Assembly (NCBI GenBank): GCA_017451525.1
Contig: JAFTOD010000006.1
Span: 62,001-126,000, forward strand
Direction of reading: 5' to 3'
Source: Paludibacteraceae bacterium
GTDB lineage: Bacteria; Bacteroidota; Bacteroidia; Bacteroidales; Paludibacteraceae
Length of the DNA: 64,000 nt
Shown: piece by piece, positions 7,936 to 38,950 of the stretch
Numbering within the stretch: position 1 is the first letter of the stretch
Layout: every line of letters starts with the position of its first letter
Notes under the pieces: model-generated
The model's input: the letters and a program-made list of their open reading frames with translations, nothing else
Told to the model about the DNA's origin: nothing
Databases searched by the model: none
Program-made: the position numbers and the translations under genes

Positions 7936-8255
7936 TAAACGAACGTATTTTTTTGAAAAGATAGACTTATCTATCAATTGAGTTAGTACCAATGTGCTCG
8001 GTGGGAGTTTACTCACAAGAGAGTACATAGGTACTAATTCAATGAAAGGTGAAGCCGTATTTCAAAAAAAATATGTGAGTAGCTGAAGTATGTGCTGCAT
8101 CGTGCGAACGTAGCTTCGGGGGAATTGTGACGATATAGTTTTACTATTGAGTCGCAAGGCGGCGTCCGAAGGTACAAATGTTCTGCTCGGTTCCTCGAAG
8201 GTACAACTATGTTCTATCTTCCCTCTCCCTATCTTTCCGCTTTCAATTACGTAGG
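7936..8255. other. Intergenic region between divergent amidase and secreted-protein genes
   Basis: Divergent spacer. No convincing ORF, tRNA or known RNA was recognised here. Short minus-strand reading frames in this stretch have no signal peptide, start context or family resemblance. A tandem repeat and a plus-strand promoter follow at its right end. Confidence 0.5.
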
Positions 8256-8310
8256 ATATACGGTAGATATACGGTAGATACACGGTAGATATACGGTATA
8301 TATATGGTAG
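8256..8310. repeat. 11-bp tandem repeat (ATATACGGTAG)
   Basis: About five imperfect copies of ATATACGGTAG: 8256-8266, 8267-8277, 8278-8288, then two degenerate copies to 8310. It is a minisatellite-like block about 100 bases upstream of a promoter. Function unknown. Confidence 0.8.
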
Positions 8311-8412
8311 ATATAGTAGCCATTACCATAGGAACATCGAGAAAAGATGCTTACACTTACTAGTCTTATTTTTATGTGAATAGAAATTTTTTTACAAATT
8401 CTGTATAATAAA

Positions 8413-8444
8413 TTTGCTCAACTAAAAAAAAAGTACTACCTTTG
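8413..8444 (+). promoter_or_regulatory. Promoter for the leader RNA / secreted-protein gene at 8750
   Basis: TTTG (8413-8416), a 20-base spacer and TACCTTTG (8437-8444) give a full match to the Bacteroidota consensus. The predicted start is near 8451, about 300 bases before the ORF. Confidence 0.8.
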
Positions 8445-8450
8445 TACCCT

Positions 8451-8600
8451 GATTCACAGAAAACGGTTAAGACACTCTTTTAGTGATGCTAACAACGGTC
8501 ACATATATCGCCTATTCTTTTTACACTACAGGGTGCAAGGATTGTTGGGCGAAATAGGATAGGGAAATGATAGGTAAGGTAATCTATTATTTCCTTTTTT
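8451..8600 (+). ncRNA. Candidate terminated leader RNA or attenuator (about 150 nt)
   Basis: Between the promoter and the ORF at 8750 the sequence folds well by eye. A stem-loop at 8466-8493 has GTTA/TAAC and CACT/AGTG arms. A pairing CCTATT/AATAGG spans roughly 8510-8558. An 11-bp stem at 8563-8573 / 8584-8594 is followed directly by TTTTTT (8595-8600), the form of an intrinsic terminator. A further hairpin GCGAAA-ctac-TTTCGC lies at 8615-8630. It could be an attenuator controlling the downstream gene or an independent small RNA. No match to 4.5S, tmRNA or RNase P signatures was seen. Confidence 0.5.
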
Positions 8601-8749
8601 ATTCGTAGAGCGCTGCGAAACTACTTTCGCGAACACAATGAAAAAATCGTTCGAGCCTATACTATAAGGCGAGATAAGAACCAAATACGTGAAACGAATT
8701 GAACAACAATTTATAATTAACTTTATTATTAACTAAAAAATCAAAAATT

Positions 8750-11092
8750 ATGAAACATGTAAAACTATTTGTCGCGTTATTCGCGATGCTCGCCCTCGGC
8801 GTTGGAAATGCCTGGGCGGAAGAGTATACCATTGGATGGGGTTCTGCCAGTGGAACTAACAGTCAAAACTTTACTGCTGTGTCTGGTGAAGTTAGTGGCG
8901 TTCTGAGTTTTACTTCTGCCAAGAATAGCAGTAGTAGTGACCCTGCGTACAATTCTAACAACCAAGAATTGCGTTTGTATTACAATGCACAGGGCAATGG
9001 TGGATCTATTACACTGACACCTGCCTCTGGTGTTACAATTACGGGTGCAGTTATCACAACGTCTACTACTCCTTCTGTCAAATACACCGTTGATGGAGGT
9101 ACAGCAACGAGTGTTTCACAAACGAGTAAAGTGTATACTATAAGTGGTATCTCTGCAACAAATTCGTTAAAGATCCAAAATGTTAATACATCTAATACTC
9201 AACTTCGTATTAAGACAATTAAAGTGACTTACGAAGTATCATCTTCATCTACTATATTAACAGACGCTCAATTTGCGTGGTCTGCTCAAACTGCGGAGGC
9301 TACAATGCCAAGTACATTTGAGGACCAACCAACTTTGACTAATACTTTAGGTCTTGATGTTTCTTATTCAAGTTCTACCCCAGCAGTTGCTACAATTAAC
9401 GCAACATCGGGTGCTATTGATCTCGTTGGTGCAGGTACAACTACTATTTCTGCCACTTTTGCTGGTGGCGAGATAGGCGGTACTACATATGCAGCAAAGA
9501 CCGTTTCTTACACCTTAACAGTTAAACCAGCTCCTCTAGTAATCGAGCCAATCGAAGGTGGAATTATTGATATTTTAACTCACAATACACTTGCTGCTAC
9601 ATCTTCTTCTTATGTTGAATTTACTAACAAACAAGCAGCCAACGAAAATCACTCAGATGCCGTTTATGCAGGTCGTTCTTCTCGCAACGGTAATGCTACT
9701 CAATATAGCATTCAATTAAATTCAATTGACAAAGGTCGCATTGCAACTACTACATCTGGAGGTCTTGCTAAACGTGTATATGTAAGATGGGCTACTCAAG
9801 GAACTCTTAATACAAATAATCGTTCATTGTATATCTATGGTAGCAACGATGCATTTACTGGTAACGAAACTTCTACATCTGCTACAAAAATCGGTACCAT
9901 CACCTTTACAACAGGCGCAGCTGAAGCATATGTAGATTTGGAGGGTGATTACAAACACATTCTCATTACTGGTAGTGGCGCTATTTATATGGATGAAATC
10001 CAAGTAACATGGGTTGCTGATGATACTCCAGAGGTTCCAACTCTTGATGCTCCAACTTTCGATCTTGAAGAAGGTACATATAACGAAGAACAAGAGGTTA
10101 CTCTTTCTGCTGAAGAAGGAACAATCTACTATACATTGGATGGCACAACTCCAGATGCTGAATCTATTGAATATACAGACCCTATCGTTCTTAATGAATG
10201 TGGTGAAATAACCATCAAAGCCATTGCAATTAGTGGTGAGATTACAAGCTCTGTCGCTTCTGCTACATATACTATTAAACTTCCTTTGAATAATAGCCAA
10301 GCTAATCCTTATACCGAAGCAGATGCAATTGAAGTATATGATGGTGGATGCTATGATAACCAAGATGTATATGTAATGGGTGTAGTAAAAACTGCACAAT
10401 TCTATAATAGTAATACATATACTATCACATTAGAGGGAGGATTCCAATTCTACAAATTCTATGAGGCTGCAGGTGAGGTTACATTTACAGAAGACTACAT
10501 CGTTGCAGGTGACACATTGGTTGCATGTGGTAAGTTAGTTAAATATGAAGAAACATACGAATTGGGAGCAGGCTGCTATTTGGTTGAGTACAAACCATAC
10601 TCACTACCTAAAGTAGATATTTCAAACACAAAAGAGACTGCATACACCGTAGAAGAAGCTATTGCTTTGATTGACAATATTACAAGCGACTTGACCAAGC
10701 AAGTATATGTTAAAGGTACTGTAAGCGAGATTGTTACAGAATATGATGCTGAATATGGAAACATTACCTATAACATCTCTTCAGATGGCTCTACATCTTC
10801 ACCTCAATTCCAATTGTATCGTGGTAAATCTTATGATGGTGAAAAATTCACATCTGCAGATGATATTAAAGTTGGTGACAAAGTTGTTGTCTATGGAGAA
10901 ATGAAAAAACATAATAGCACATACGAAATGAATGCAGGTAACCAACTCGTTGCTCTTGAGAGAGAAGATACTACCACTGCTCTCGACAATGTAGAGGCTA
11001 CAGTTACTCCTGTTAAGGCTATCGTAAATGGTCAATTAATCATCATCAAGAATGGCGTTCAATACAACGCTCAAGGTCAAGTGATTAAGTAA
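8750..11092 (+). CDS. Secreted multidomain protein with chitobiase C-terminal and OB-fold domains
   Basis: 780 residues with signal peptide MKHVKLFVALFAMLALGVGNAWA. The order is: an N-terminal beta region (about 24-160); a bacterial Ig-like segment (about 165-258, ending TVSYTLTVK); another beta region (260-430); a chitobiase/hexosaminidase C-terminal-like domain (about 430-510, with IYYTLDGTTP); two OB-fold-like repeats (about 510-627 and 628-741, each with VYVxGxV); and a tail NGQLIIIKNGVQYNAQGQ. The tail recurs in the protein encoded at 11276 and resembles a short C-terminal sorting or anchoring signal. Substrate unknown; a surface or extracellular binding role is inferred. It is preceded by a 300-base leader and followed by a clear terminator. 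Confidence 0.8.
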   Translation: MKHVKLFVALFAMLALGVGNAWAEEYTIGWGSASGTNSQNFTAVSGEVSGVLSFTSAKNSSSSDPAYNSNNQELRLYYNAQGNGGSITLTPASGVTITGAVITTSTTPSVKYTVDGGTATSVSQTSKVYTISGISATNSLKIQNVNTSNTQLRIKTIKVTYEVSSSSTILTDAQFAWSAQTAEATMPSTFEDQPTLTNTLGLDVSYSSSTPAVATINATSGAIDLVGAGTTTISATFAGGEIGGTTYAAKTVSYTLTVKPAPLVIEPIEGGIIDILTHNTLAATSSSYVEFTNKQAANENHSDAVYAGRSSRNGNATQYSIQLNSIDKGRIATTTSGGLAKRVYVRWATQGTLNTNNRSLYIYGSNDAFTGNETSTSATKIGTITFTTGAAEAYVDLEGDYKHILITGSGAIYMDEIQVTWVADDTPEVPTLDAPTFDLEEGTYNEEQEVTLSAEEGTIYYTLDGTTPDAESIEYTDPIVLNECGEITIKAIAISGEITSSVASATYTIKLPLNNSQANPYTEADAIEVYDGGCYDNQDVYVMGVVKTAQFYNSNTYTITLEGGFQFYKFYEAAGEVTFTEDYIVAGDTLVACGKLVKYEETYELGAGCYLVEYKPYSLPKVDISNTKETAYTVEEAIALIDNITSDLTKQVYVKGTVSEIVTEYDAEYGNITYNISSDGSTSSPQFQLYRGKSYDGEKFTSADDIKVGDKVVVYGEMKKHNSTYEMNAGNQLVALEREDTTTALDNVEATVTPVKAIVNGQLIIIKNGVQYNAQGQVIK

Positions 11093-24845: not shown

Positions 24846-26021
24846 TTAGTACAATAACCCAAAGGCAAAGAGTGGTATAACCGCAGGCGATGCATATTCA
24901 ATATCATCACGAACAACAATGCCATATTTTGCTTCTGCAAGTTGCTTTTTCCTTTTCTTTTTACCTCCAACTTCAAATGTATATTCGCCTATTTGGAAAT
25001 CGCTAATTGTTGAGGCAAAAACACGTTCTGTCATATTGGTGGCTGAAAGGAAGAAGGTTTCGCGCACGTTGCCTATCTCAATGTTTTCAGATGCTAAAAG
25101 GTACATTAAATTCGTGTTGTTGAGATATACTTTTTCCACTTTACCCAAAAGGGCTATACCTTCAGTAGTTTGGCGGAGTTGCATAATTACTCCTGCTTTT
25201 TCGAGATAGAATAGCAGGTCAGAAATATCATTACGACTTATTCCCAAATCCCGCGCAATGGCTTGCATATTAGGTTTGAATGGTACACTAGCTGCAATAA
25301 TACCGAGCAATGTTTTGAGTTTTCGGGTTGTTCCTACATTCATCTGTGCAAAAGTGGGAATATCAACCTCGAGTGTTTGCAATAGCGAACTATGAAGATG
25401 CTCGTGGAAATGTCCATCTGTAAAATATGGATAATACCCATATTGCAAATACTCAGCCATCACGGGTAATGGTTTCAGTGCATCGTAAGGCCAGTCTATT
25501 TTTCCATCTATCAGTTCCTGTAACGAATGTTGCCGAATTTTATATCCATATTTCAGTTCCACAAACTCACGCAGACTAAGTCCTTGCATATGATATTGCA
25601 GTTTTCGACGTGACAGATCGGCACCACCTTTTTCTAAGTCCAAGATAGAGGAACCAGTATATACTACTTTCAATGAAGGGAAACTATCATAGATGTTTTT
25701 GATTTCGGTGGACCAATTAGCGTATTTATGAATTTCATCTATATACAAGTACTTACCTCCATATTGTACAAATGTATTTGCCAAGTCAAATAGGCGGTGT
25801 GTCGCAAAATAGATGTTATCAGCAAACACAAACAACGAATGTTCGATGTCATTAGTTTCTTTTATATGCTGAAGTAGAAGTGTTGTTTTTCCCACTCCTC
25901 GAGCACCAAGGATACTTATTAGGCGTGCGTCCCAATCAATTACGTCGTGCATGTAACGTCGAATCATCTTAGGATTAAGGTGCTTCAACTGGCGTTTCAT
26001 TTCTTCTTGCAGAGCTTTCAT
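24846..26021 (-). CDS. AAA ATPase of the AAA_14/DUF4143 type
   Basis: 391 residues. Walker A is GARGVGKTTLLL near residue 39-50; the Walker B-like segment YLYIDEIHKYANWSTEI, the sensor VYTGSSILDL and the SLREFVELKYG box are typical of this family. The C-terminal half has the winged-helix/DUF4143 layout (ARDLGISRNDISDLLFYLEKAGV) and ends with a nuclease-like EVGGKKKRKKQLAEAKYG segment. Family members are widespread in Bacteroidota with no settled function. It lies between two copies (A and B) of the same repeat and has its own promoter, so it may be a separately gained cassette. A second, diverged member is at 30174. Confidence 0.85.
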   Translation of the reverse strand: MKALQEEMKRQLKHLNPKMIRRYMHDVIDWDARLISILGARGVGKTTLLLQHIKETNDIEHSLFVFADNIYFATHRLFDLANTFVQYGGKYLYIDEIHKYANWSTEIKNIYDSFPSLKVVYTGSSILDLEKGGADLSRRKLQYHMQGLSLREFVELKYGYKIRQHSLQELIDGKIDWPYDALKPLPVMAEYLQYGYYPYFTDGHFHEHLHSSLLQTLEVDIPTFAQMNVGTTRKLKTLLGIIAASVPFKPNMQAIARDLGISRNDISDLLFYLEKAGVIMQLRQTTEGIALLGKVEKVYLNNTNLMYLLASENIEIGNVRETFFLSATNMTERVFASTISDFQIGEYTFEVGGKKKRKKQLAEAKYGIVVRDDIEYASPAVIPLFAFGLLY

Positions 26022-26579: not shown

Positions 26580-29500
26580 TTATACCACCTTTATAAACTC
26601 GCCGATGATGCAAAATTCCTCTATATCATCAGGAGAGAGGATGATTGGCTCATATGAATGATTCAGTGGGTGCAGTTCTATGGATTCGTGCGCCCATTCG
26701 CCAAATTCATTGTACTTCTTGGTGCTATGATATTCTTTGATAGAATAGCTTCCCTCATACTCCGTATCTACGCTGCCTTGGTGCTCCGCAAGAATAATTT
26801 TGCCTTCGCGTGAGCCACCTTGATAGCGTTGGAAGAGGCAATAATCGCCATCATTGATGCGTGGCTCCATAGAATGGCCTACTGCCTGAATAATAAACTT
26901 ATTGCAGTCTTTCTTGCCAAAACCGTCCACTTGCATCCAGCCAATCTGCTCTGCTGGCTCATAATGACCGAAATGACCACAAGCAGCTCGTACTGAATAC
27001 ACTGGATAATAGGCAGTAAATTTTTGCTCTTCATCCACTTCCTCTAATATAAGTGGTTGTGTTTCCGTTTCTGCTGAGGATACAGGTTGTTCGGTTGCTA
27101 TTTTTTGCTCTTGTAATGATGGGCGTATATCGCTATTGTTGTCAGTCCATTGTTCGCATTGTCGGATGACAATCTCCATTGCATTCTCGGTGGCCTCTGG
27201 TGGGTAGTTATACTTCTTGAGGAGGCGTTTCACCAGTCGGCGCATGCCTGCGCGAGCTGACTCCTTCTTCTGCCAATCAATGGTGCGGTTCTTGCGCAGC
27301 ATGTCGGTGAGTTCTTTGGTCATCGCCACCAGTTCTTCGTTGGTATAGAAATCTTGTACTGCTGCGGGTTTGGTGAGTGCGTCATAGAAAGATTTTTCTT
27401 CGCTATTCAATCCCAGTTCATTGCCTTGTTTTTCTGCTTCGGAGATATCATTTGCCAAGTGCAATAATTCTTGAATTACCTCTTCGTTGGTGAGCATGCC
27501 TTTGAGGTAGTTGGATAGTGAACGATTTAGCAGTTCGGAGAATTTCTCAGCTTGTATCAAGTTGGTGTGCTGATAATGCTTCACGCGCTCATTGATAAGG
27601 TTTTTGAGTATCTCAATAGCGATATTCTTCTCTTTCATGCGTGCTATCTCAGCCAAGAACTTCGCATCAAAAATAGAGAACTCCTCTTGCACATCGGCAA
27701 AGAGATTGATGATGCTATCGCTTTTGATACTCTGTTTGAGCAGGGCGTTGATGCGTTCGTTGATGTCGCGCAATGAGATTTTTCCTCTGCCCTCTACGCG
27801 CGTGATGAGTGTGCGTACTGCCTCGAAGTATGCCGAATGTAGGCGTTCATCGTAGCTGAGCAGACTATGGCAGAGCGAGCGTGCTTGAATGAGCAGTTGT
27901 GCCTGTTTGACAAACTGGTTTTTGGTTTCTTGTTTGTCGGCTGACTGCAAGTAGTCCACACCTCTGCTGATGGCTTTAGCACGTTGCAGGTCGGATGTGC
28001 CGAAGAATGCTGCGTAGTCAAAACCGTGTAGCAGATCGCGGCAGACTTCAAGTCGCTTTTGAAATTCTGGGTATGCTGTTTTGGATATGTCGGTATCGCC
28101 GTAGTTCTCGCGGTCGCGAATGGTGTACTCCTTCATCGCTTGCTTGAGCGCAGCAGCTATACCTACATAATCGACCACCAAACCGCCCTGCTTGTCGCCG
28201 AACACGCGATTGACGCGCGCAATGGCCTGCATGAGGTTGTGTCCTGCCATGGGTTTGAATACATACATGGTGGACAGCGATGGTACATCAAAGCCCGTGA
28301 GCCACATATCCACTACAATGGCTATCTTGAGTGGGCTATCGTTATCTTTGAAGCGTTTCTCCAGTTCCTTTTTGTGGGTATCGTTGCCGATGATTGGTCG
28401 CCACTCTTCGGGGTCTTGGTTGCCCGATGTCATCACTACTGCCACTTTCTCTGTCCACAGTGGGCGCAGTTGCAAGATACGCTGATAGATCTTCATGGCT
28501 ATTGGGCGTGAGTATGCCACAATCATGGCTTTGCCCGTCTGCTCGTATTGGCGGTAATCTTCGTAGTGGGTGAGGATGTCATCTACCAATGAGTTGATAG
28601 TTTCATCTGCACCCAATAGCGAATCAATGCGCGCCAGTTCGCGTTTGCTTTTCTCGATAGCGTACTCTTCGGCTTCTTCTGCCATTTGGTCGTATTCGGC
28701 ATCAATGCGTTGCAGGGTGGCTTCATCGAGTTTGAGATTGACCACACGACTCTCGTAGAAGACGGGACGAGTAGCACCATCTTTGACGGCTTGGGTCATG
28801 TCGTAGATATCGATATAATCGCCAAACACTTCGCGTGTGGAGTGGTCTTTGAAGGAGATAGGTGTGCCTGTAAAGCCGATATATGTAGCATTTGGCAGTG
28901 CATTGCGCACCATACGCGCTGCACCAATCTTGAGTTTGCCTGTTTGTTTGTCGATGGTCTCGGTGAGTCCATATTGGCTACGATGGGCTTCATCAGCCAC
29001 CACGATGATGTTTCTGCGTTGGGATAGCGGTTCTTCGCCTTCCTCGAACTTCTGCATAGTGGTGAAGAAGATACCATTGGCTTCTATACCGTCCAGCAGT
29101 TCACTGAGGTGTTTTCTGCTTTTGGCTTGTACGGGCACTTGGCGCAAGAAGTCGGCGCACTTGCTGAACTGCCCAAAGAGTTGGTTGTCGAGGTCCGTGC
29201 GGTCGGTAATGACCACGATAGTAGGTGAAGATAGCGCACGCTGTAGGCATTTGGCAAAGAATACCATTGACAGGGACTTGCCGCTACCCTGTGTATGCCA
29301 GAACACACCACCTTTGCCGTTGGTGGTAGTAGCTTCTTTGACAGAAGTGATGGCTTTGCGCACGGCATAGAACTGGTGGTAACCAGCCAGTATCTTGGCA
29401 CTCTGTTTCTCCTCTTTGGAGAAGCAGATAAAGTCGCGCAGGATTTCGATTAGTCGCTCTTGCTCAAACATGCCGCAGAAGAGCACATGGAAATTGGCGA

Positions 29501-30161
29501 AGTGGTTGTCTTCGGTTTGTCCATCTACTGTCTTCCATTCCATGAATCGGTCCTCGCCCGAAGTGATGGTACCTGCTTTGGATGTTACCAAATCGCTCAT
29601 CACGCAGAAAGCGTTATAGACAAATAGCGATGGTATCTCTTGCATGTAGTTGCGCAGTTGGGCGTATGCTTCCGATACATTGGTTTCGGTGCGTGAGGGT
29701 GATTTGAGTTCCATCACCACCAATGGCAGACCATTGATAAAGACAATAATATCTGCTCGGCGCACGGAATGTTCTTCTATGGACCATTGATTTGCCACTA
29801 CGAAATTGTTGTGCAATGGGTGGTCGTAGTCTATGAGCCGAACGCATGCGGAGTGTTGTTCTTTGCCGTCGAAATAGCTGACATCTACTCCGTTTTGCAG
29901 GTAATCTGTAAATACCTCATTGCGTTGCACAAGTGAGCCCGTGTCGATTTGCCTAATCTTATCTATGGCTTCTTGAATAGCCACAGCAGGCAGAGTAGGA
30001 TTGATAGCCAATAACGACTGTTGCAGACGGTCGAGGAATAGTGGCTCGGTATAATCACGCTCAATGTCGGGACCGTAGATATATTCATATCCCAATTGGT
30101 CACGAAAGAGCTCAATAATCGCTTGCTCGTAGTTCGCTTCGTTGAAGGTATCTTTGCTCAT
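26580..30161 (-). CDS. hsdR: Type I restriction enzyme HsdR fused to a C-terminal UmuD/LexA-like (S24) domain
   Basis: 1193 residues; ordinary HsdR proteins are near 1000-1050. The N-terminal nuclease domain has D137 in RRADIIVF and E151-L-K153 (PD-ExK). The motor has Walker A TQGSGKS (290-296), DEAH at 390-393 and GFTGTPIS, then the C-terminal helical region. After a Gln/Glu/Thr-rich linker (about 1005-1050) comes a 142-residue domain. It has a Cys1061-Gly1062 pair in VRAACGHFG, Ser1097 in AVGHSMEPRINDGDYCLF and Lys1142 in SYSIKEYH, then IELHPLNHSYEPIIL. These align with the UmuD cleavage site Cys24-Gly25, Ser60 and Lys97; Cys-to-Ser spacing is 36 in both. HsdR cuts DNA after translocation; self-cleavage is inferred. 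It follows the 30174 ATPase gene by 12 bases. Confidence 0.93.
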   Translation of the reverse strand: MSKDTFNEANYEQAIIELFRDQLGYEYIYGPDIERDYTEPLFLDRLQQSLLAINPTLPAVAIQEAIDKIRQIDTGSLVQRNEVFTDYLQNGVDVSYFDGKEQHSACVRLIDYDHPLHNNFVVANQWSIEEHSVRRADIIVFINGLPLVVMELKSPSRTETNVSEAYAQLRNYMQEIPSLFVYNAFCVMSDLVTSKAGTITSGEDRFMEWKTVDGQTEDNHFANFHVLFCGMFEQERLIEILRDFICFSKEEKQSAKILAGYHQFYAVRKAITSVKEATTTNGKGGVFWHTQGSGKSLSMVFFAKCLQRALSSPTIVVITDRTDLDNQLFGQFSKCADFLRQVPVQAKSRKHLSELLDGIEANGIFFTTMQKFEEGEEPLSQRRNIIVVADEAHRSQYGLTETIDKQTGKLKIGAARMVRNALPNATYIGFTGTPISFKDHSTREVFGDYIDIYDMTQAVKDGATRPVFYESRVVNLKLDEATLQRIDAEYDQMAEEAEEYAIEKSKRELARIDSLLGADETINSLVDDILTHYEDYRQYEQTGKAMIVAYSRPIAMKIYQRILQLRPLWTEKVAVVMTSGNQDPEEWRPIIGNDTHKKELEKRFKDNDSPLKIAIVVDMWLTGFDVPSLSTMYVFKPMAGHNLMQAIARVNRVFGDKQGGLVVDYVGIAAALKQAMKEYTIRDRENYGDTDISKTAYPEFQKRLEVCRDLLHGFDYAAFFGTSDLQRAKAISRGVDYLQSADKQETKNQFVKQAQLLIQARSLCHSLLSYDERLHSAYFEAVRTLITRVEGRGKISLRDINERINALLKQSIKSDSIINLFADVQEEFSIFDAKFLAEIARMKEKNIAIEILKNLINERVKHYQHTNLIQAEKFSELLNRSLSNYLKGMLTNEEVIQELLHLANDISEAEKQGNELGLNSEEKSFYDALTKPAAVQDFYTNEELVAMTKELTDMLRKNRTIDWQKKESARAGMRRLVKRLLKKYNYPPEATENAMEIVIRQCEQWTDNNSDIRPSLQEQKIATEQPVSSAETETQPLILEEVDEEQKFTAYYPVYSVRAACGHFGHYEPAEQIGWMQVDGFGKKDCNKFIIQAVGHSMEPRINDGDYCLFQRYQGGSREGKIILAEHQGSVDTEYEGSYSIKEYHSTKKYNEFGEWAHESIELHPLNHSYEPIILSPDDIEEFCIIGEFIKVV

Positions 30162-30173
30162 AGTATGCCAATA

Positions 30174-31505
30174 TTAACGTTTTAAGAAACGGCGCAGGAG
30201 GAAGGTAAGGAAATATGGGAAGGTATAAAACTTGCCATTAAATCCTATGTTCTTATTACACAACTTGATGCCATATTGAATGTCATCGTATTTCTCTTTG
30301 TCGCTACTAATCAGTCGATTGAGCGATGCTGTAGCATTGTCTTTGGCTTTTACTTCTACTGGAATCAATGATTGGGCATCGCGTACAAAGAAATCCATCT
30401 CCAGACTTGGTGATTCGCTACGATAATAATATAGGTCATATCCTTGTTTAGCCAACATGTCTGCTACAATATTCTCGAAGATTGCACCTTTGTAGGTGCC
30501 AAAGTTGCGATTGACACGCAAGTCTTCCTGCGCTTCTTCATCCAACGAAGCAATCAATAGTCCTGTATCTCGGTAATACACCTTATATAGTTTGGCATCG
30601 TAGTTGCCCTTGAGTGGCAGCGATGGCGTTTGCAAGCAGTAGCAGATATTGATGATTCCTGCATTGGCAAGCCACTCTACTGCACCAATATATTCCCTAT
30701 TGCGCGCACCGCGAGCAATCTTGGTGACTTGGAAACGCTTATTTTCAGCAGCCAAGAAAGTAGTTATATGTCGATATACCGCCAAGACTTTGGCTTTGTC
30801 AAACCCTGATGCATATTTTGTGATATCCTCTTCATAGTCTTGCAATAGTTGGCGTTGCAATTGTAGCAATCCACTAAACTGTCCGCTCTCTATATAGCGA
30901 TTTACCACCTCTGGCATACCGCCCAAAATCATATAATCGCTGAATAGCCCACCCAGAACATCCATTTGCATATTGCTGAGTGGTTTGAGTTCTAGCATAT
31001 GCTGATAGAGGTCATCGATAAAATGCTCATCATAGCCCTTTGCCCACAGAAACTCCTCGAAGTCCAGCGAATACATTTCGTAGTCAGTCTTGTATCCTAC
31101 ACTATTGGACTCTATCTGCTGATAGTACAAGCCCATGAGTGAGCCAGAGCAGATGACATCGTATCGTCCGTCTTGCTTGAAGGATTTGAGACTGGTGGCG
31201 CAATCGGGATATTCTTGCAACTCATCGAAGAAGAGCAGCGTTTCATGAGGCACAAAGACCAATGTGGGGTTTAGCAATGTGATGTTTTTGATGATACTAT
31301 CTACCTCATATCCGTCTGCAAATATCTGCTTGTATTTGGGTTGTAGAGCGAAGTTGATTTCCACGATGTTGTTGTAGTATTTTTCTCCAAAATACCGTAT
31401 AGAAGCAGTCTTACCCACTTGACGCGCACCTTTCACAATCAGTGGCTTTTTGTCAGTGGACGCTTTCCATTCTTCTAAATACTTATCAATCTTTCGTTTA
31501 AGCAT
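30174..31505 (-). CDS. AAA ATPase, DUF4143 family
   Basis: 443 residues. Walker A is KGARQVGKTASIRYFG (residues about 25-40), with LLFFDELQEYPDC as Walker B and DVICSGSLMG as sensor. The DUF4143 part has IARGARNREYIGAVEWLANAGII and YYRDTGLLIASL. A C-terminal endonuclease-like strand pattern (SLEMDFFVRDAQSLIPVEVKA) resembles the D...ExK layout of restriction-like nucleases found at the end of many family members. It lies directly upstream of hsdR (12 bases) under one promoter with repeated operator-like sites, so the two are probably expressed together. Function of the family is not settled. Confidence 0.85.
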   Translation of the reverse strand: MLKRKIDKYLEEWKASTDKKPLIVKGARQVGKTASIRYFGEKYYNNIVEINFALQPKYKQIFADGYEVDSIIKNITLLNPTLVFVPHETLLFFDELQEYPDCATSLKSFKQDGRYDVICSGSLMGLYYQQIESNSVGYKTDYEMYSLDFEEFLWAKGYDEHFIDDLYQHMLELKPLSNMQMDVLGGLFSDYMILGGMPEVVNRYIESGQFSGLLQLQRQLLQDYEEDITKYASGFDKAKVLAVYRHITTFLAAENKRFQVTKIARGARNREYIGAVEWLANAGIINICYCLQTPSLPLKGNYDAKLYKVYYRDTGLLIASLDEEAQEDLRVNRNFGTYKGAIFENIVADMLAKQGYDLYYYRSESPSLEMDFFVRDAQSLIPVEVKAKDNATASLNRLISSDKEKYDDIQYGIKLCNKNIGFNGKFYTFPYFLTFLLRRFLKR

Positions 31506-31662: not shown

Positions 31663-32607
31663 TTACTCTCTTACTTTCCAATGTGCCATTGGATGATTGC
31701 AAATATTATGGATTATTTCTGCATCAGAGAATAATAGTTCGGGCTTGTATTGTTTTGCAACAAAGGATTCGATAAAGGCAATCTCACTATCTGTCCATTG
31801 CAACAAGTCTTCCAAGAATGCTACCACCTCTGTTTTAGCTGTTTCGAAATTAAAAGAATCACCTTTCTTGAGCATAGGTAGTAAGGTGGCACGAATTTGT
31901 GGGAATTTGATTTGCTTTATGCCGCTTAAGTCATACATTGTACTTGGTTGTTCACTACCACCTACCGCTAAATAAAATAGTACTACCTTACGTAGTATAG
32001 CAAGGTCAAAATCCTTAATCAACTCACTATGTAGCAGATTATATACATCGTACAAATCACGACAAGTATGTCGCTCTATCAATGCTTTGATTTTACTGCC
32101 GAAGAGCTCTATCGGATGAAGCGTCCTGATAGGTATGTTTTGCAGAAAAGTCACATTGACCGTGCTAGTTTGAGGCACGAAGATATGTTGCCGCATAGAA
32201 TAGTTGATTTCTATCTTGATGTTATCCCGATTGCCACCTGCGTTTTGATAGAAGAATACCCACGAATCCAGCGAGTGAGGATTCTTGGTATTTGGGCTGA
32301 GATTATACCCTTGGCTTGTCATATATGCTAATATCTCAGCGTTGATAGCGACGCGATACTGTAGCATTTCCTCGCGTGGGCAGTCCTTGTGAAAGTCCAA
32401 ATCAATGTCCACAGACAAACGGGGCATTTCAAAAACAGCTAAGTTGATCGCTGTACCGCCTTTCAATACCAAACAATCATTCAGTTTGTCATTCTGCATG
32501 ATGAATTGTAGCACCTCCACCAAGCGCAATACCTTTTCCAAGTTATCGCGCAAGAAATGTGTTTCGCTTGCCAATTGGGCTATGTCGTTTTTGTTATACG
32601 AGTTCAT
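31663..32607 (-). CDS. abiEii: AbiEii/AbiGii-family nucleotidyltransferase toxin
   Basis: 314 residues with the nucleotidyltransferase core LVLKGGTAINL and SVDIDLDFH (the DxD metal pair), the family hallmark. The downstream ELFGSKIKALIERHTCRDLYDVYNL box is also typical. AbiEii toxins of type IV toxin-antitoxin systems modify tRNA 3' ends or bind nucleotides and arrest growth, causing abortive infection. It overlaps the antitoxin gene at 32594 by 14 bases, the usual coupled order antitoxin-toxin. It sits between the hsdR and hsdMS units of the defence island. Confidence 0.9.
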   Translation of the reverse strand: MNSYNKNDIAQLASETHFLRDNLEKVLRLVEVLQFIMQNDKLNDCLVLKGGTAINLAVFEMPRLSVDIDLDFHKDCPREEMLQYRVAINAEILAYMTSQGYNLSPNTKNPHSLDSWVFFYQNAGGNRDNIKIEINYSMRQHIFVPQTSTVNVTFLQNIPIRTLHPIELFGSKIKALIERHTCRDLYDVYNLLHSELIKDFDLAILRKVVLFYLAVGGSEQPSTMYDLSGIKQIKFPQIRATLLPMLKKGDSFNFETAKTEVVAFLEDLLQWTDSEIAFIESFVAKQYKPELLFSDAEIIHNICNHPMAHWKVRE

Positions 32608-33352
32608 CTGGGTTGTGTTGATTGATAGTTAGTAGATTTTTAGGTGCATATAGTCGCCATGCTGCAGTGAAGGTATCACTATCGCCATCCGATGTGAGAT
32701 AAGTGACACTCTCTTTGGCGTATTGTTTACAAGCATCTATCAAGTTGCTGGAGACAGGGAGATGTAACTGCTCTAATAAGAAGCCCACTTTTTTATACAA
32801 TGCAATCTTATTGTATGTTTGTAAGATAGTTAGTAGCATTTCTTCACGGAGGTATTGCACACTCTTGAGGCAATTGGTCAGTTCTTCCCAGCCACCGCAT
32901 AGGTCAATACGATCAATGCAATCAATCACTGTTCGCTCCACATTCGTCACGCGCACATGTGCGTCGGCAATAGGTGTGTCAATACCTATTTGCGTAGAGA
33001 TTTGACGGAAGGCAAAGTGAATCCCATCAAATTCAAATGCATTGAATGCCTGTTCGCCTCCGACTGCTACATCGTAATATACTTGATGTGCCAATCCGTG
33101 GTACTCCATCGCAGCACGATATGCGACATAGGAGCTTGGTGTAATAGCAGACGCTACTTGATATTTATTGGCTTCAGGCAGATGGGTTGCGATATTGTTT
33201 GCGCAGTATAACCCACGTCGTACTTTGGACACAAACCCTTGCTTTTGATAGCGCATAAGCAAAGTTTGTGCACTGCGTGTGTTGCCTGTTTCTTGGGCTA
33301 CATCTTGCAATGTGAACAATAATTTACTATGTAGAAAGGATAATAGATTCAT
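32594..33352 (-). CDS. abiEi: AbiEi-type antitoxin / transcriptional regulator
   Basis: 252 residues. The N-terminal winged helix (LFTLQDVAQETGNTRSAQTLLMRYQKQGFVSKVRRGLYC) is the AbiEi DNA-binding form. The C-terminal domain has SSYVAYRAAMEYHGL and VTNVERTVIDCIDR. AbiEi neutralises AbiEii without stable contact and represses its own operon. The last 14 bases overlap the toxin start. A TATCTTTG promoter lies just upstream. Confidence 0.88.
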   Translation of the reverse strand: MNLLSFLHSKLLFTLQDVAQETGNTRSAQTLLMRYQKQGFVSKVRRGLYCANNIATHLPEANKYQVASAITPSSYVAYRAAMEYHGLAHQVYYDVAVGGEQAFNAFEFDGIHFAFRQISTQIGIDTPIADAHVRVTNVERTVIDCIDRIDLCGGWEELTNCLKSVQYLREEMLLTILQTYNKIALYKKVGFLLEQLHLPVSSNLIDACKQYAKESVTYLTSDGDSDTFTAAWRLYAPKNLLTINQHNPDELV

Positions 33353-33582: not shown

Positions 33583-33897
33583 TTACTTTAGTTGTTTTCT
33601 AATCTGCTGTTTGCGGTTTAATAGACTATCCTTCCGTTGCTTAAGAGTATCTATAGTCCCTTGATAGGGATTCGGAAGAAATCCATATATATGACTATTC
33701 TTTTCCTCTCCTTCAACTTTTAACCTTTCTATTTTCGCATTGATCTCCACTATTTCTTTGTCTATATCTGCTAATTCTTTTTCCCTATTTTGTTGCAATA
33801 CGGCTTTATTGGCTTTCTTCGCTTCGATGAAAGCCCATATTGAAATGCCAACTCCAATAGCAGCAATGCTTATTGATATAATAGAATCCCAATTCAT
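33583..33897 (-). CDS. Small membrane-anchored coiled-coil protein
   Basis: 104 residues; family not recognised. One hydrophobic segment at residues 5-23 (IISISIAAIGVGISIWAFI) is followed by a charged heptad-like stretch (KEIVEINAKIERLKVEG and TLKQRKDSLLNRKQQI) predicted by eye as coiled coil. It begins 37 bases after the reverse transcriptase gene and ends the hsdM operon. The position suggests it works with the reverse transcriptase, perhaps as a membrane partner. A SLATT-type effector was considered, but those have two membrane segments. Confidence 0.6.
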   Translation of the reverse strand: MNWDSIISISIAAIGVGISIWAFIEAKKANKAVLQQNREKELADIDKEIVEINAKIERLKVEGEEKNSHIYGFLPNPYQGTIDTLKQRKDSLLNRKQQIRKQLK

Positions 33898-33934: not shown

Positions 33935-35473
33935 CTATTTTATTTTTTTTTGATACTCCGCTTTAAGAAAAGTGATATTTTGCTTTTTTAGTACTTTATA
34001 CTCTCCCGGCAAAGAACTTTGAGGTAGAACTTCATAAATAAACAACCAATATCTATCCATATCGCCATTTTTTAGATATTCTTCAGCAATATCTTTTAAT
34101 GTTTTCTGAGCGGCTTTATCTCTCATATGGTTTAATTTTAGGAAGGTCAATAGCAACAGAATACAATCTTCACTATGTATCGCATAATCAAGAATATTTA
34201 TTCCGTCTAAATTAAAATTGTATTTAATAGCCCAAGATAGTGCGAAGGAACATGCCTCATAGTTTCTCTTTTTTATATTTAATTCGTATAAGTTAATTGC
34301 AATTTCTTTAATTTTATCTACATTAACATTAAATACAGCAAATATATATTTATCGTACCAATGTACCAAATATGGATATAATAAAAGTAGATGATGCATC
34401 ATATCAATGTAGTAGTTCAATGCTTTTTTGCCTAAAACATAACTAGAAACAACTTTTAATACATAAGTAAAGATAGATGCATTTCCAGTGCTATTAACCA
34501 AATTTACAGCTAAATCAAGGTATGCTTTTAATCGCGCGTAACGAAGTAGTTTTTTACCATCATCAGTTTTATCTTCTCCCATATAAAAACTCGTTAATGC
34601 ATTTTTCCAATCATTATCAAAAGAAAGTGGCAATCTTGTAATACGGGTTTTCTTGGTATTTAATGCTAATTCGTATTTTTTTAATGCACCGACTAAATCT
34701 AATATGAATTTTTCAGCTTGTTCTTCACTCTCTGCGTAAAAAGTAATATCATCAATATACCTCACATAATCATATGCAGATAACTCATCATCTACAGTTG
34801 TTAGTATGATTTCAGATAATAGATTCGATGTATGTGGACCTATTAATAATCCACATGTTTCATTGTATTTTATCTTTCTACTACATTCATCTAATTGATT
34901 ATACCATAAGGTTGTATCTTTATTCGTTTTTGCAATTTGCTTTCCAACTAACGCCCATGATAAAGCATGAGAATATATACTTGGGAAACAAGAAGAAATA
35001 TCTGTTTCTACTTTATAAAATTTTGCAATAGGTTGTTTTTGAATAAATTCTATAGTGTCATTGTCTACATCTTTATAGTTCGTAGACATTTCAAATAAAT
35101 GGAACCCATTAGTTCGTTTCTGAATATGTACTTGACTTCGTTTAAATTTTTCATGCAAAGTTTTATCTTGAAAGTGTTGTTTTATATGCGACCAATTATT
35201 TGCGATACATATACATAAATTGTAATATGCAAAGGGAGTAGGAATACCAAGTGCTCTTGGTACACTAGTATTTCGCATGCTATCATAGCGTATATAATCC
35301 CATCCCATTTTTGATGTAAACTTTAAAGCATAGTGAGAGTTATCGCAATATTCATAAAATTTTTCAGCAGTTAGAAAATCTGGTAATTTATCTGCAAACA
35401 TACCATGTCCTAACAACCCTTTTCTCAATTCTTCTGCTGATAGTTCATCAATATAGTCGTAATATGTTTTCAT
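33935..35473 (-). CDS. Abi/UG-class reverse transcriptase (putative antiphage RT)
   Basis: 512 residues. RT motifs: motif A with D158 in KVETDISSCFPSIY; motif B-like GLLIGPHTSNLLSEI (208-222); motif C YIDD (239-242). The metal-binding aspartates are intact. An RT core of about 320 residues is followed by a purely helical C-terminal half (ALSWAIKYNFNLDGINILDYA and later helices). This is the layout of abortive-infection and defence-associated RTs rather than retrons or group II introns; no maturase or endonuclease domain is present. It starts 12 bases after hsdS. Its sequence looks clearly more AT-rich than hsdM, suggesting separate origin. Subfamily not assigned. Confidence 0.85.
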   Translation of the reverse strand: MKTYYDYIDELSAEELRKGLLGHGMFADKLPDFLTAEKFYEYCDNSHYALKFTSKMGWDYIRYDSMRNTSVPRALGIPTPFAYYNLCICIANNWSHIKQHFQDKTLHEKFKRSQVHIQKRTNGFHLFEMSTNYKDVDNDTIEFIQKQPIAKFYKVETDISSCFPSIYSHALSWALVGKQIAKTNKDTTLWYNQLDECSRKIKYNETCGLLIGPHTSNLLSEIILTTVDDELSAYDYVRYIDDITFYAESEEQAEKFILDLVGALKKYELALNTKKTRITRLPLSFDNDWKNALTSFYMGEDKTDDGKKLLRYARLKAYLDLAVNLVNSTGNASIFTYVLKVVSSYVLGKKALNYYIDMMHHLLLLYPYLVHWYDKYIFAVFNVNVDKIKEIAINLYELNIKKRNYEACSFALSWAIKYNFNLDGINILDYAIHSEDCILLLLTFLKLNHMRDKAAQKTLKDIAEEYLKNGDMDRYWLFIYEVLPQSSLPGEYKVLKKQNITFLKAEYQKKIK

Positions 35474-35485
35474 GATTTTATATTT

Positions 35486-36544
35486 TTACGCTTTTATCTC
35501 TCCACTCATTAACTTTGGTAATAAAGTGTCGCGGATGGTTGAGAGATTGTTGATTTCTATTGTATTTTTATCTATCTCATTAAACAGACTATCAAACAAG
35601 GATAATTTTTCGTCTATTGAATAAGGAGGCATCGTAAATGTAAAATCGGCAATATTTCCTTTTGTAATAAATTTAATTACACTACCTCTACTGCCACCTG
35701 TTATTTCTTGTAAATGATATTTAATTAACAAGTATAAGAACGAATGATAGCGTTTTTCGAAAGGAATTAATACATATGTTCGTTGATATGCTTCAAATTT
35801 TCCGATATATCGTTTAACATTGAAATCTCCATTGCCTGCCAATAGTATCGCAGCTCCCTCAAAACTATAATTAGGTGCTTTTAGGATGTCTTGTGAGCAT
35901 GTAAAGAATGGATAAACTCCATCTTTTGTAGAATAATTGGCATCCTTTTTTCCTGTAATTACATTGAAGAAGTCAGCAAGTCTTTTTGTCTCCCATCCTG
36001 TTGAATCTGCATCCACAAACCATGATTTATAGAGTGCTTGGGCTTGTTGTTCGAGATTGGCGTTGATACGGCGATTTAATTCGATTTTATCATCTATCGC
36101 ACTCAATATATCCGCTATGCGCTTCTGCTCCGCAAGAGGAGGAAGAAAGATTTGCCATTGCATTATTTGACTTTTATCACCACGAGGCATTTTACATCCT
36201 TTTGCGCCTGACATTACATAGTCGAAGAACTTTTGTTGGCTCAATAAGTAATATAAATATTTACTATTTGCTTTCTCATTTGCACGAATGCATAAAACAT
36301 CCGCAGAGCAAGCTCCATTACAATTTGCCAGCCAAATTTTTTGAAAATATGGTCGAATATTTGATATTAGCACATCCCCTAATTGATAAGCAATAGCAGA
36401 GCCATTTGGAATATTAGATGGAGAAGTGATACCACCTTTATTAGGTAGCATATTTTCAGTAGAGATATAGTTTTCTATGTTACAAGTACGACTTGTAACA
36501 AATCTACAAATATCGCTTAGGTTATATGTTTCCCAATAATTCAT
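35486..36544 (-). CDS. hsdS: Type I restriction specificity subunit HsdS
   Basis: 352 residues with two target-recognition domains separated by a conserved helix. The first half ends in LPPLAEQKRIADILSAIDDKIELNRR; the second ends in DTLLPKLMSGEI. This double arrangement specifies a bipartite DNA target. It is somewhat short for the family (usually near 400). The start codon overlaps the stop of the AbiJ-like gene by 4 bases (ATGA), so translation is probably coupled. Target sequence cannot be deduced. Confidence 0.92.
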   Translation of the reverse strand: MNYWETYNLSDICRFVTSRTCNIENYISTENMLPNKGGITSPSNIPNGSAIAYQLGDVLISNIRPYFQKIWLANCNGACSADVLCIRANEKANSKYLYYLLSQQKFFDYVMSGAKGCKMPRGDKSQIMQWQIFLPPLAEQKRIADILSAIDDKIELNRRINANLEQQAQALYKSWFVDADSTGWETKRLADFFNVITGKKDANYSTKDGVYPFFTCSQDILKAPNYSFEGAAILLAGNGDFNVKRYIGKFEAYQRTYVLIPFEKRYHSFLYLLIKYHLQEITGGSRGSVIKFITKGNIADFTFTMPPYSIDEKLSLFDSLFNEIDKNTIEINNLSTIRDTLLPKLMSGEIKA

Positions 36545-37464
36545 TCTAATTTGCTCCCTAAGTAGTTAATAAATGCAGAACAAGAAACCAACATAAATAA
36601 TGCTTCTTCTCCTCCAGGAGCATATGCACCACTATCATCCATCAATGCATGACGAATACCAGAATCAGATTGATTTGTATATGCATATAACTTATCAAAT
36701 GCTTGTTTTAGTACTGCTGGAAAAACGATTCCATTTTGTTCTAACTTATTTAAGGCCTTCCCCAATGTGTTCTCCCCCGTCTTTTCTCGACAAAAAGCCT
36801 CTACAGCGGAAATAGATTCTTTTATAGAATTGCGATAATCACCCTCTGGTCGTTGTGCGTATAACTCCAATGCACGATTGAGATGTAGTTGAATGTTACG
36901 AGGAGTATTATCAATAGCAGTTTCAATAGTTGCTATTTCCTGTTCTGATGTAATTTCTACGATTTCTTTATTAACAACACGATATGCAAAATTCAGTCGC
37001 TCAAATTCCGAATTGAGCATATCAACAAACATGGAATAAACAGTAACGTTATTGGGGTTAAATCTGTGTGAATAGTATCTCTCATCATCATCATAAATAT
37101 ATTCTATCACAAAGTCTAATAAATCTATTTTCTCATACCAATTCTTAAATGGTTCTTCAATAAAATCAGTTGAAACTATAGTAGGATCATAAAAATTAGC
37201 ATTGAAATTATTTTCTCGTTCATTAAGGAATTGAGTCCATACATACTGTTCTAAACAGATATACCATCTCCTTCCTTCAGCCTCTGAACATGATCTAACG
37301 GAACACACTATTCGTGGAAGTCTGTCAAAACATGTACAAATAGCATTTTGTATTTCTGGTGTAATTTGTTCACGAATTATCACATCTGAAGCTTTTGTAT
37401 ATCCGTATCTTTCTGAAAATCGAGCCATATATTCTGTAACATTTATTTTATAATTTATACCCAA
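36541..37464 (-). CDS. AbiJ-NTD4/HEPN-like protein inside the hsd operon
   Basis: 307 residues. The N-terminal stretch FSERYGYTKASDVIIREQITPEIQ resembles the AbiJ N-terminal domain 4. The C-terminal 120 residues (GDYRNSIKESISAVEAFCRE ... SGIRHALMDDSG ... FMLVSCSAFINYL) look like the helical HEPN-type domain of AbiJ/DUF-type abortive-infection proteins, with R271-H272 as possible active residues. The classical Rx4-6H motif is not clearly present, so RNase activity is uncertain. It overlaps hsdM by 17 bases and hsdS by 4 bases, so it is embedded in the operon with translational coupling. Confidence 0.65.
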   Translation of the reverse strand: MGINYKINVTEYMARFSERYGYTKASDVIIREQITPEIQNAICTCFDRLPRIVCSVRSCSEAEGRRWYICLEQYVWTQFLNERENNFNANFYDPTIVSTDFIEEPFKNWYEKIDLLDFVIEYIYDDDERYYSHRFNPNNVTVYSMFVDMLNSEFERLNFAYRVVNKEIVEITSEQEIATIETAIDNTPRNIQLHLNRALELYAQRPEGDYRNSIKESISAVEAFCREKTGENTLGKALNKLEQNGIVFPAVLKQAFDKLYAYTNQSDSGIRHALMDDSGAYAPGGEEALFMLVSCSAFINYLGSKLE

Positions 37465-38950
37465 TACTTTCTAATTGCTTTTTGATTTCTGCTTCGAGGG
37501 TGTGGGATTGCTCGAAGAGGGAAGCGAGTTCGGTGGTGAGGCGAGTCATCTTCTCCTCAAACGGTTCGGCATCTTGCTCCTGTTCGGCTATACCGACATA
37601 GCGACCTGGTGTGAGGATGTAATCTTGCTCGGCAATATCCTTGATATTCTTCACAGCGCAGAAGCCCTTTTCATCGGTGAGCGTGCCTGCGGCATAAGAC
37701 TGATAGGTCTGGGCAATGCGCATGATGTCCTCCTCGGTCAGTTCGCGGAGCTTGCGCGTAACCATAGTCCCCATCTCTCGCGCGTCGATAAAGAGCGTTT
37801 GTCCCTGTTGTTTCTTATGGCGATTGAAGAACCAGATTGACACAGGAATACCTGTGGTATAGAACAACTGCGAAGGCATAGCAATGATACAGTCCACCAA
37901 GTCGGCTTCTACCAATCGTTGGCGTATATCGCCCTCGCCACCCGTCTGGCTGGAGAGTGAGCCATTAGCCAGCACCACGCCTGCACGACCCGAAGGGGCG
38001 AGGTGGTGGATGATATGCTGAATCCATGCGAAGTTGGCATTGCCATCAGGGGGCGTGCCATACTTCCAACGTACATCACCCGTCAAGCGGTTACCGCCCC
38101 AATCGCTAAGGTTGAAAGGTGGGTTAGCCATCACAAAGTCGGCTTTCAGCGTAGGGTGTTGGTCATCGAAGAAAGTGTCAGCATTGAACTTGCCGAGATC
38201 TGCCTCAATGCCACGGATAGCGAGGTTCATCTGCGCCATCTTCCATGTGGTAGGGTTGCTGTCTTGACCGAAAACAGATATATCGTTGATATTGCCTTGG
38301 TGGCGTTGGATGAACTTAGCCGACTGCACAAACATACCGCCAGAGCCACAAGCAGGGTCATAGACGCGACCGTGGTAGGGCTGCAACACCTCTACCAATG
38401 TGCGAACAATACATGCAGGCGTGTAGAACTCGCCCGCGAGTTTGCCTTCTGCCTCGGCGAACTTAGAGAGGCAGTACTCGTAGGTGCGACCTAAGATGTC
38501 CTTCGTGTCGCCCTGCTCGCGCATTTGGATATTGGTGAAGAGGTCCACCACATCGCCCAAACGGCGTTTGTCCAACTCTGGGCGTGCGAAGTTCTTGGGC
38601 AAGATACCCTTTAAGCGAAGGTTCTCCTTTTCGATTTGGCGCATGGCGTTGTCGATGACCATACCGATCTCGCTGCTGTGCGCTGCCTCGGCAATAACCG
38701 ACCAACGCGCGTCTTGTGGCACGTAGAAGATGTTTTCGGAGGTGTATTCATCCTTATCCTCTTCAAAGCCCTCGCCTTCAGCAAGCAGTTCGTTGTATTT
38801 CGCCTCGAAACGGTCGGAGAGGTACTTGAGGAAAATCAAGCCCAGCACCACCGATTTGTATTCCGATGCATCCAGATTGCCACGCAAGAGGTCGGCTGCT
38901 TTCCAAATCTCTTTCTCAAATCCAATATCTGCTGTATTGATGTTAGCCAT
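37448..38950 (-). CDS. hsdM: Type I DNA methyltransferase subunit HsdM
   Basis: 500 residues, normal length. The N-terminal helical domain (DLLRGNLDASEYKSVVLGLI) is followed by the SAM motif VYDPACGSGGMF and the catalytic NPPFN motif of N6-adenine methylases. It modifies adenines in the target set by HsdS and protects self DNA. It is the first gene of the operon hsdM-abiJ-like-hsdS-RT-membrane protein. A promoter with an adjoining inverted repeat lies just upstream. Confidence 0.96.
   Translation of the reverse strand: MANINTADIGFEKEIWKAADLLRGNLDASEYKSVVLGLIFLKYLSDRFEAKYNELLAEGEGFEEDKDEYTSENIFYVPQDARWSVIAEAAHSSEIGMVIDNAMRQIEKENLRLKGILPKNFARPELDKRRLGDVVDLFTNIQMREQGDTKDILGRTYEYCLSKFAEAEGKLAGEFYTPACIVRTLVEVLQPYHGRVYDPACGSGGMFVQSAKFIQRHQGNINDISVFGQDSNPTTWKMAQMNLAIRGIEADLGKFNADTFFDDQHPTLKADFVMANPPFNLSDWGGNRLTGDVRWKYGTPPDGNANFAWIQHIIHHLAPSGRAGVVLANGSLSSQTGGEGDIRQRLVEADLVDCIIAMPSQLFYTTGIPVSIWFFNRHKKQQGQTLFIDAREMGTMVTRKLRELTEEDIMRIAQTYQSYAAGTLTDEKGFCAVKNIKDIAEQDYILTPGRYVGIAEQEQDAEPFEEKMTRLTTELASLFEQSHTLEAEIKKQLESIGYKL

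Follow-up and report, generated by a model that had tools for sequence, protein, structure and literature searches.

How do type I restriction enzymes spare a damaged host chromosome, and could such an enzyme carry the necessary control within its own polypeptide chain? The first question is still partly open. For E. coli, two reports describe degradation of translocating HsdR by ClpXP (PMC4231737; PMC3874165), and in the former both the HsdR signal read by ClpXP and a degron at the EcoKI termini were sought and not found. The second question is raised by a gene in a stretch of 64,000 nucleotides from the genome of a gut bacterium of the Paludibacteraceae (the window), which Pfam, PADLOC and NCBIfam identify as hsdR and in which Pfam finds an additional C-terminal S24 domain. 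If HsdR carried its own S24 protease, control would lie inside the enzyme, where it could be tested by single mutations. The hsdR frame (26580..30161, minus strand like all window features below) is intact and open throughout and encodes 1193 residues, of which residues 5-1010 match the PADLOC profile REase_I PDLC03040 (E 1.1e-293); NCBIfam TIGR00348 gives 584.7 bits against a cut-off of 284.55. Pfam finds the domain order known from EcoKI and HindI-like HsdR proteins, that is an HSDR_N nuclease domain (residues 6-204; 29550..30146), a SWI2_SNF2 motor domain (residues 262-499; 28665..29378), a T1R_D3-like domain (residues 593-665) and a T1RH-like_C domain (residues 694-1007; 27141..28082). As in these systems, hsdM (37448..38950, 500 residues) and hsdS (35486..36544, 352 residues), both assigned by PADLOC and Pfam, lie upstream in the operon on the same strand, with other genes intervening, and nuclease, motor, C-terminal R domain and partner genes of a type I enzyme are thus all present. 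Unlike the usual type I HsdR, the window protein continues past the normal end. Since the best PADLOC profile has reached position 1026 of 1029 at residue 1010, residues 1011-1193 are additional to an HsdR that is already complete, and the nearest tail-less relatives, with open frames of 1016-1060 residues, stop shortly past T1RH-like_C. The surplus consists of a fast-evolving linker of 40 codons (residues 1011-1050; 27012..27131) and the S24 tail, delimited for the analysis as residues 1044-1193 (26583..27032).

What kind of domain is this tail? The initial annotation had taken the C-terminus of HsdR for a UmuD/LexA-like self-cleavage domain and proposed a profile search to verify this. In that search Pfam Peptidase_S24, with a curated cut-off of 23.3 bits, matches residues 1080-1189 of the whole protein (E 1.2e-8, 35.1 bits) and the last 144 residues alone (E 5.5e-11, 42.6 bits), the latter value ruling out a chance motif. 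The S24 assignment therefore stands, and the narrower attribution to UmuD or LexA does not: the NCBIfam models for UmuD (PRK10276, 20.0 bits against a cut-off of 110) and LexA (TIGR00498, 18.6 bits against 110.95) score the tail far below their cut-offs, and a phmmer search of PDB with the single tail gave no significant match, the best being UmuD at E 0.5. Independent support for S24 comes from a profile built on 30 tails, which retrieves from the PDB the LexA chains 8gms (E 0.0062), 3k2z (E 0.0083) and 1jhe (E 0.013) and UmuD 8gmt (E 0.05), with the Ala-Gly pairs of 8gms and 1jhe aligning onto the pair of the tails, and hhalign of the tails against seven S24 proteins of phages together with a UmuD-like one gave a probability of 98.7% with the pair off by one residue. 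The residues named in the initial annotation were read correctly. They are the presumed self-cleavage pair Cys1061-Gly1062 (26976..26981), the presumed nucleophile Ser1097 in GHSMEP (26871..26873), the presumed general base Lys1142 in YSIKEY (26736..26738) and the stretch IELHPLNHSYEPIIL, and the Cys-to-Ser distance is indeed 36 residues. The corresponding UmuD residues are Cys24, Gly25, Ser60 and Lys97. The tail thus shares with UmuD, LexA and the phage CI repressors the S24 domain, the Ala/Cys-Gly pair, the Ser, the Lys and the pair-to-Ser distance of 36. It differs from them in sitting on a 1193-residue restriction subunit with neither a polymerase partner nor a DNA-binding domain, which Pfam does not find ahead of the S24 part of the tail, and in a longer Ser-Lys spacing, 45 residues as compared to 37 in UmuD.

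Conservation of the catalytic residues was assessed in an alignment of 30 tails, which leaves out a Halomonas plasmid locus (L025), a fragment from genome G293 in which no Ser motif was seen, and the later-found L098 and L109; architecture labels in it rest on Pfam for 11 loci and on reading of the sequence for the others, and one row (L071) has an unusual letter composition. All 30 tails retain an Ala/Cys-Gly pair, the Ser and the Lys. The residue before the presumed cut is Ala in 20 of them and Cys in the other 10, and the pair lies 36 residues from the Ser in 24 tails, 35 in four and 38 in two. Loss of Ser or Lys in relatives, which the initial annotation had named as evidence against a self-cleaving domain, is not seen in these 30 tails.

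The same fusion is found in three further metagenome-assembled genomes titled Paludibacteraceae, whose sources are the guts of deer and buffalo (L002, L003 and L004, the last on a contig that begins within hsdR). Their tails are 92-95% identical to that of the window, so that an assembly artefact is ruled out. Counts of synonymous and non-synonymous changes in all six pairwise comparisons of the four genomes put dN/dS at 0.05-0.125 in the tail, as against 0.25-0.83 in the linker and 0.014-0.037 in the HsdR core, core values of pairs with L004 being based on residues 720-1010 only. The tail is under strong purifying selection and the preceding linker under much weaker selection, the pattern of two folded units on a free linker. 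Together with the domain matches and the retained residues this supports the view that the window HsdR ends in a complete, selected and catalytic-looking S24 domain, predicted to cleave itself. It would be difficult to reconcile with the tail being an accidental and functionless fusion, neutral or decaying. The rarity of the fusion and the broken look of the short G293 relative could be cited for such a passenger, but selection on the tail next to a much freer linker already makes it unlikely and a second HsdR lineage also has the tail, leaving this explanation very improbable. The synonymous divergence of the tail exceeds that of the core in the pairs window-L002 (dS 0.415 vs 0.145) and window-L004 (0.755 vs 0.216, core residues 720-1010), and the tail may therefore have recombined.

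The second tailed lineage comprises HsdR proteins of 1182 and 1181 residues in genomes G623 and G691 (L070/L076 and L071/L077) with HSDR_N, SWI2_SNF2, T1R_D3-like and S24 domains according to Pfam, and a third protein of 1183 residues on an IMG/VR contig (L109). An AU test, run with the tree already known and with groups set by architecture, rejects a tree in which the tails of the two HsdR lineages form one clade (p 0.005, with 24 further rows), and the window tail groups with the tail of a Schlafen-type protein (L005; support 95/93). On these trees the simplest reading would be that HsdR captured the S24 tail at least twice. The count of HsdR-S24 fusions suggested in the initial annotation was made in part, and it yielded these two lineages and a fusion that is rare. 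A search of the order with HsdR residues 695-1193 matched 89 genomes out of 393. Seven of the 89 matched solely via the tail of another protein, and besides the own genome this leaves 81 with an HsdR-like match, in none of which that match includes the tail, at up to three candidates scored in each. Of the 244 genomes in the class of G691, 27 matched at least 285 core residues and only G691 matched across the tail, with up to five candidates scored per genome; at such depths a fusion could have been missed. A plasmid search with the second lineage gave 768 matching records, none covering 80% of the query, and among the 40 matches listed none passes residue 496 of 651. Longer HsdR frames in seven genomes (G048, G279, G263, G069, G081, G748 and G477; L081, L092-L097) have no S24 tail. 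One of these, from G477 (L093:2704-6144), has a different extra C-terminal domain, SLFN_AlbA_2 at residues 1006-1139, and L092 appears similar by reading, so that HsdR may quite generally accept additional domains at its end. In the open-access PMC literature, to which our search was confined, no description of an HsdR-S24 fusion was found; domain databases may already display the architecture without comment.

Is the tail confined to HsdR? It is a member of an S24 subfamily whose domains also stand at the C-terminus of Schlafen-group-3 helicases and of PLD-SF2-DUF3427 enzymes (PADLOC name mREase_IV). These two groups of proteins have another nuclease and another motor than HsdR, are not type I enzymes, and bear tails 46-53% and 30-41% identical, respectively, to that of the window. 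A search of the order with the single tail matched 10 of 393 genomes, own genome included, and found outside the latter nine tailed proteins and the G293 fragment across nine genomes. Six of the tails end Schlafen-group-3 helicases with a nuclease-like N-terminus (a motif assigned by reading, three of the six being Pfam-scanned), two end proteins combining GIY-YIG with a Schlafen-group-3 helicase according to Pfam, and one ends a PLD-SF2-DUF3427 protein. A search of the phylum with a 14-row profile matched 18 of 395 genomes, namely the own genome, nine with GIY/Schlafen-type proteins (one a fragment), five with DUF3427-type proteins, two with HsdR and one with a protein cut by the contig edge, where five of the 17 other loci were labelled by domain scan and the remainder by reading. 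Occurrence on two HsdR lineages and on other helicase-nuclease proteins is what one would expect if the tail were a portable module for control, and tails on DNA-moving defence enzymes suggest a built-in switch that may be moved between them. The presence of this tail on such different proteins would suggest that defence enzymes share a layer of control that has no name yet; in open-access PMC articles we found no paper on S24 tails of Schlafen-group-3 or PLD-SF2-DUF3427 enzymes. Genome G031 encodes two different tailed effectors, a GIY-YIG-Schlafen protein (L022) and a PLD-SF2-DUF3427 protein (L023). On the Halomonas plasmid, a Schlafen-type frame is overlapped at its end by an S24 frame of 159 residues that is read in a different frame.

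Two other origins of the tail were considered and rejected. Recent capture of a UmuD gene is not in line with the weak similarity between the window tail and a same-genus UmuD-like protein (L100; E 0.085 in a small blastp comparison that leaves out L103 and L104). For a phage origin, the profile of the 30 aligned tails was searched against IMG/VR, where 63 frames in 74 loci match and only one is longer than 350 residues, and this one (L109) is the HsdR of the second lineage; the single tail had no match in IMG/VR and one weak match among phage records.

What could the tail do for the enzyme? S24 proteins with an Ala/Cys-Gly pair, Ser and Lys cleave themselves, usually aided by RecA filaments, and cut LexA has an Ala-rich end (...VAA) that is preferred by ClpX. 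RecA and ClpX are encoded in the window's own genome, which is 84% complete. Peptidase_S24 matches there once, at the HsdR tail, and a search for LexA in this 84% complete genome gave no match, while 13 of 14 control genomes were positive, the sole negative being Bacteroides ihuae. Eight of ten other genomes matched PF00717. The two that did not, G041 and G320, belong to the same family, and two of the same genus have S24 genes, for a UmuD-like protein (G245) and a 236-residue frame (G383), so that S24 absence is not a trait of the genus. In the likely course of events, DNA breakage by the HsdR enzyme itself, by phage or by other damage would lead to RecA filaments on single-stranded DNA. Such a filament, or strain in the enzyme, would then induce cleavage of Cys1061-Gly1062 by the Ser1097-Lys1142 pair within the same chain. 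The cut would free a tail of 132 residues and leave HsdR as residues 1-1061 with the new end ...VRAAC. The likeliest outcome would be damping of restriction, in that the Ala-rich, LexA-like end feeds HsdR to ClpXP; alternatively, loss of the tail might weaken the restriction complex. Damping is favoured because proteolysis of HsdR is the means by which E. coli keeps its type I enzymes in check and because the predicted new ends, VAA, AAA, IAA or TAA in the tails with Ala before the cut and AAC in the window, are Ala-rich as in cut LexA. In this proposal the control of HsdR would be proteolytic as in the ClpXP-mediated alleviation of EcoKI (PMC4231737, PMC3874165). EcoKI alleviation uses a separate host protease, whereas the window HsdR has a predicted S24 protease in its own chain. 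We consider a self-cleaving tail, probably stimulated by RecA, whose release damps restriction as the leading explanation and give it, tentatively, somewhat less than an even chance.

Several points count against this damping reading. The window end ...AAC differs from the ...VAA of LexA, and Ala before Gly may perhaps reflect just the cleavage preference of S24 domains. The fusion is rare among the HsdR-like frames of the order, and restriction alleviation in E. coli works without any S24 tail and persists in a lexA1 strain (PMC11109961). Moreover, the putative cut would leave an HsdR of canonical length, so that inactivation does not follow from anatomy, which fits an off switch, an on switch or an exposed degradation signal alike. 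The main rival therefore turns the effect around: the tail would restrain HsdR and self-cleavage would activate it, granting full restriction only once an infection is betrayed by broken or single-stranded DNA. A product of residues 1-1061 matching the tail-less relatives would have lost no known necessity; on the other hand, activation by damage would be dangerous to a host in which sites have newly become unmethylated, and the E. coli precedent of HsdR proteolysis (PMC3874165) is the opposite, and we regard such activation as unlikely.

Alternatively, the tail could serve for docking or dimerization, with RecA, a polymerase or the partner HsdR, its catalytic residues being little used or used for turnover only. 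The S24 domains of UmuD and LexA dimerize and bind RecA, and two tails would meet in a type I complex, since it contains two copies of HsdR. Yet docking alone needs no catalytic set, and the conservation of pair, Ser and Lys in all aligned tails renders this reading rather improbable. Lower still we rate the idea that the freed tail, or its active site in trans, is a signal that acts on a phage repressor or on the product of a defence gene embedded in the operon. Between hsdM and hsdR lie genes for a DRT4-like reverse transcriptase, AbiJ_NTD4, AbiE and AAA_14 proteins that could receive it, but these embedded genes vary among relatives while the tail remains, no partner has been identified, and Pfam finds no DNA-binding domain of the tail's own. 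A generalization of the damping reading, which we hold more loosely than that reading itself and consider doubtful though worth stating, is that the tail is a portable self-cleaving "circuit breaker", repeatedly captured by defence nucleases that translocate DNA (PLD-SF2-DUF3427 enzymes, two kinds of Schlafen-group-3 helicase and two HsdR lineages), and that it would couple them directly to RecA filaments, in some hosts without LexA. If true, the effector rather than a repressor would have the damage response built in.

The operon around the tailed gene contains further defence genes. AAA_14 ATPases flank hsdR on both sides (30174-31505, with DUF4143 over cut-off, and 24846-26021, both minus strand), and an AbiEi/AbiEii toxin-antitoxin pair (31663-33352, minus) lies upstream of it. 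Between hsdS and hsdR, a DRT4-like antiviral reverse transcriptase is encoded (33935-35473, minus; PADLOC Drt4 E 2e-175, NCBIfam Drt4 364.4 bits, under the cut-off of 450). The adjoining gene (33583-33897, minus) specifies 104 residues with a hydrophobic start and a charged remainder, for which no Pfam, PADLOC or NCBIfam family scores over cut-off. An AbiJ_NTD4 protein (36541-37464, minus; PADLOC PDC-S32) is encoded between hsdM and hsdS. In the close relatives, the interval from hsdM to the tailed hsdR encodes a 648-residue protein without Pfam or PADLOC match and an AAA_14-type ATPase (L002:1-6856) or an AriA/OLD-like ATPase together with AbiE-like genes (L003:1-6842), which gives the locus the look of a site where defence genes are exchanged. 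In the second HsdR lineage, hsdM, hsdS and the Septu genes PtuA and PtuB stand directly ahead of hsdR in L077, the Septu pair (8069-10019) between hsdS and the S24-tailed hsdR, and L076 is similar by reading.
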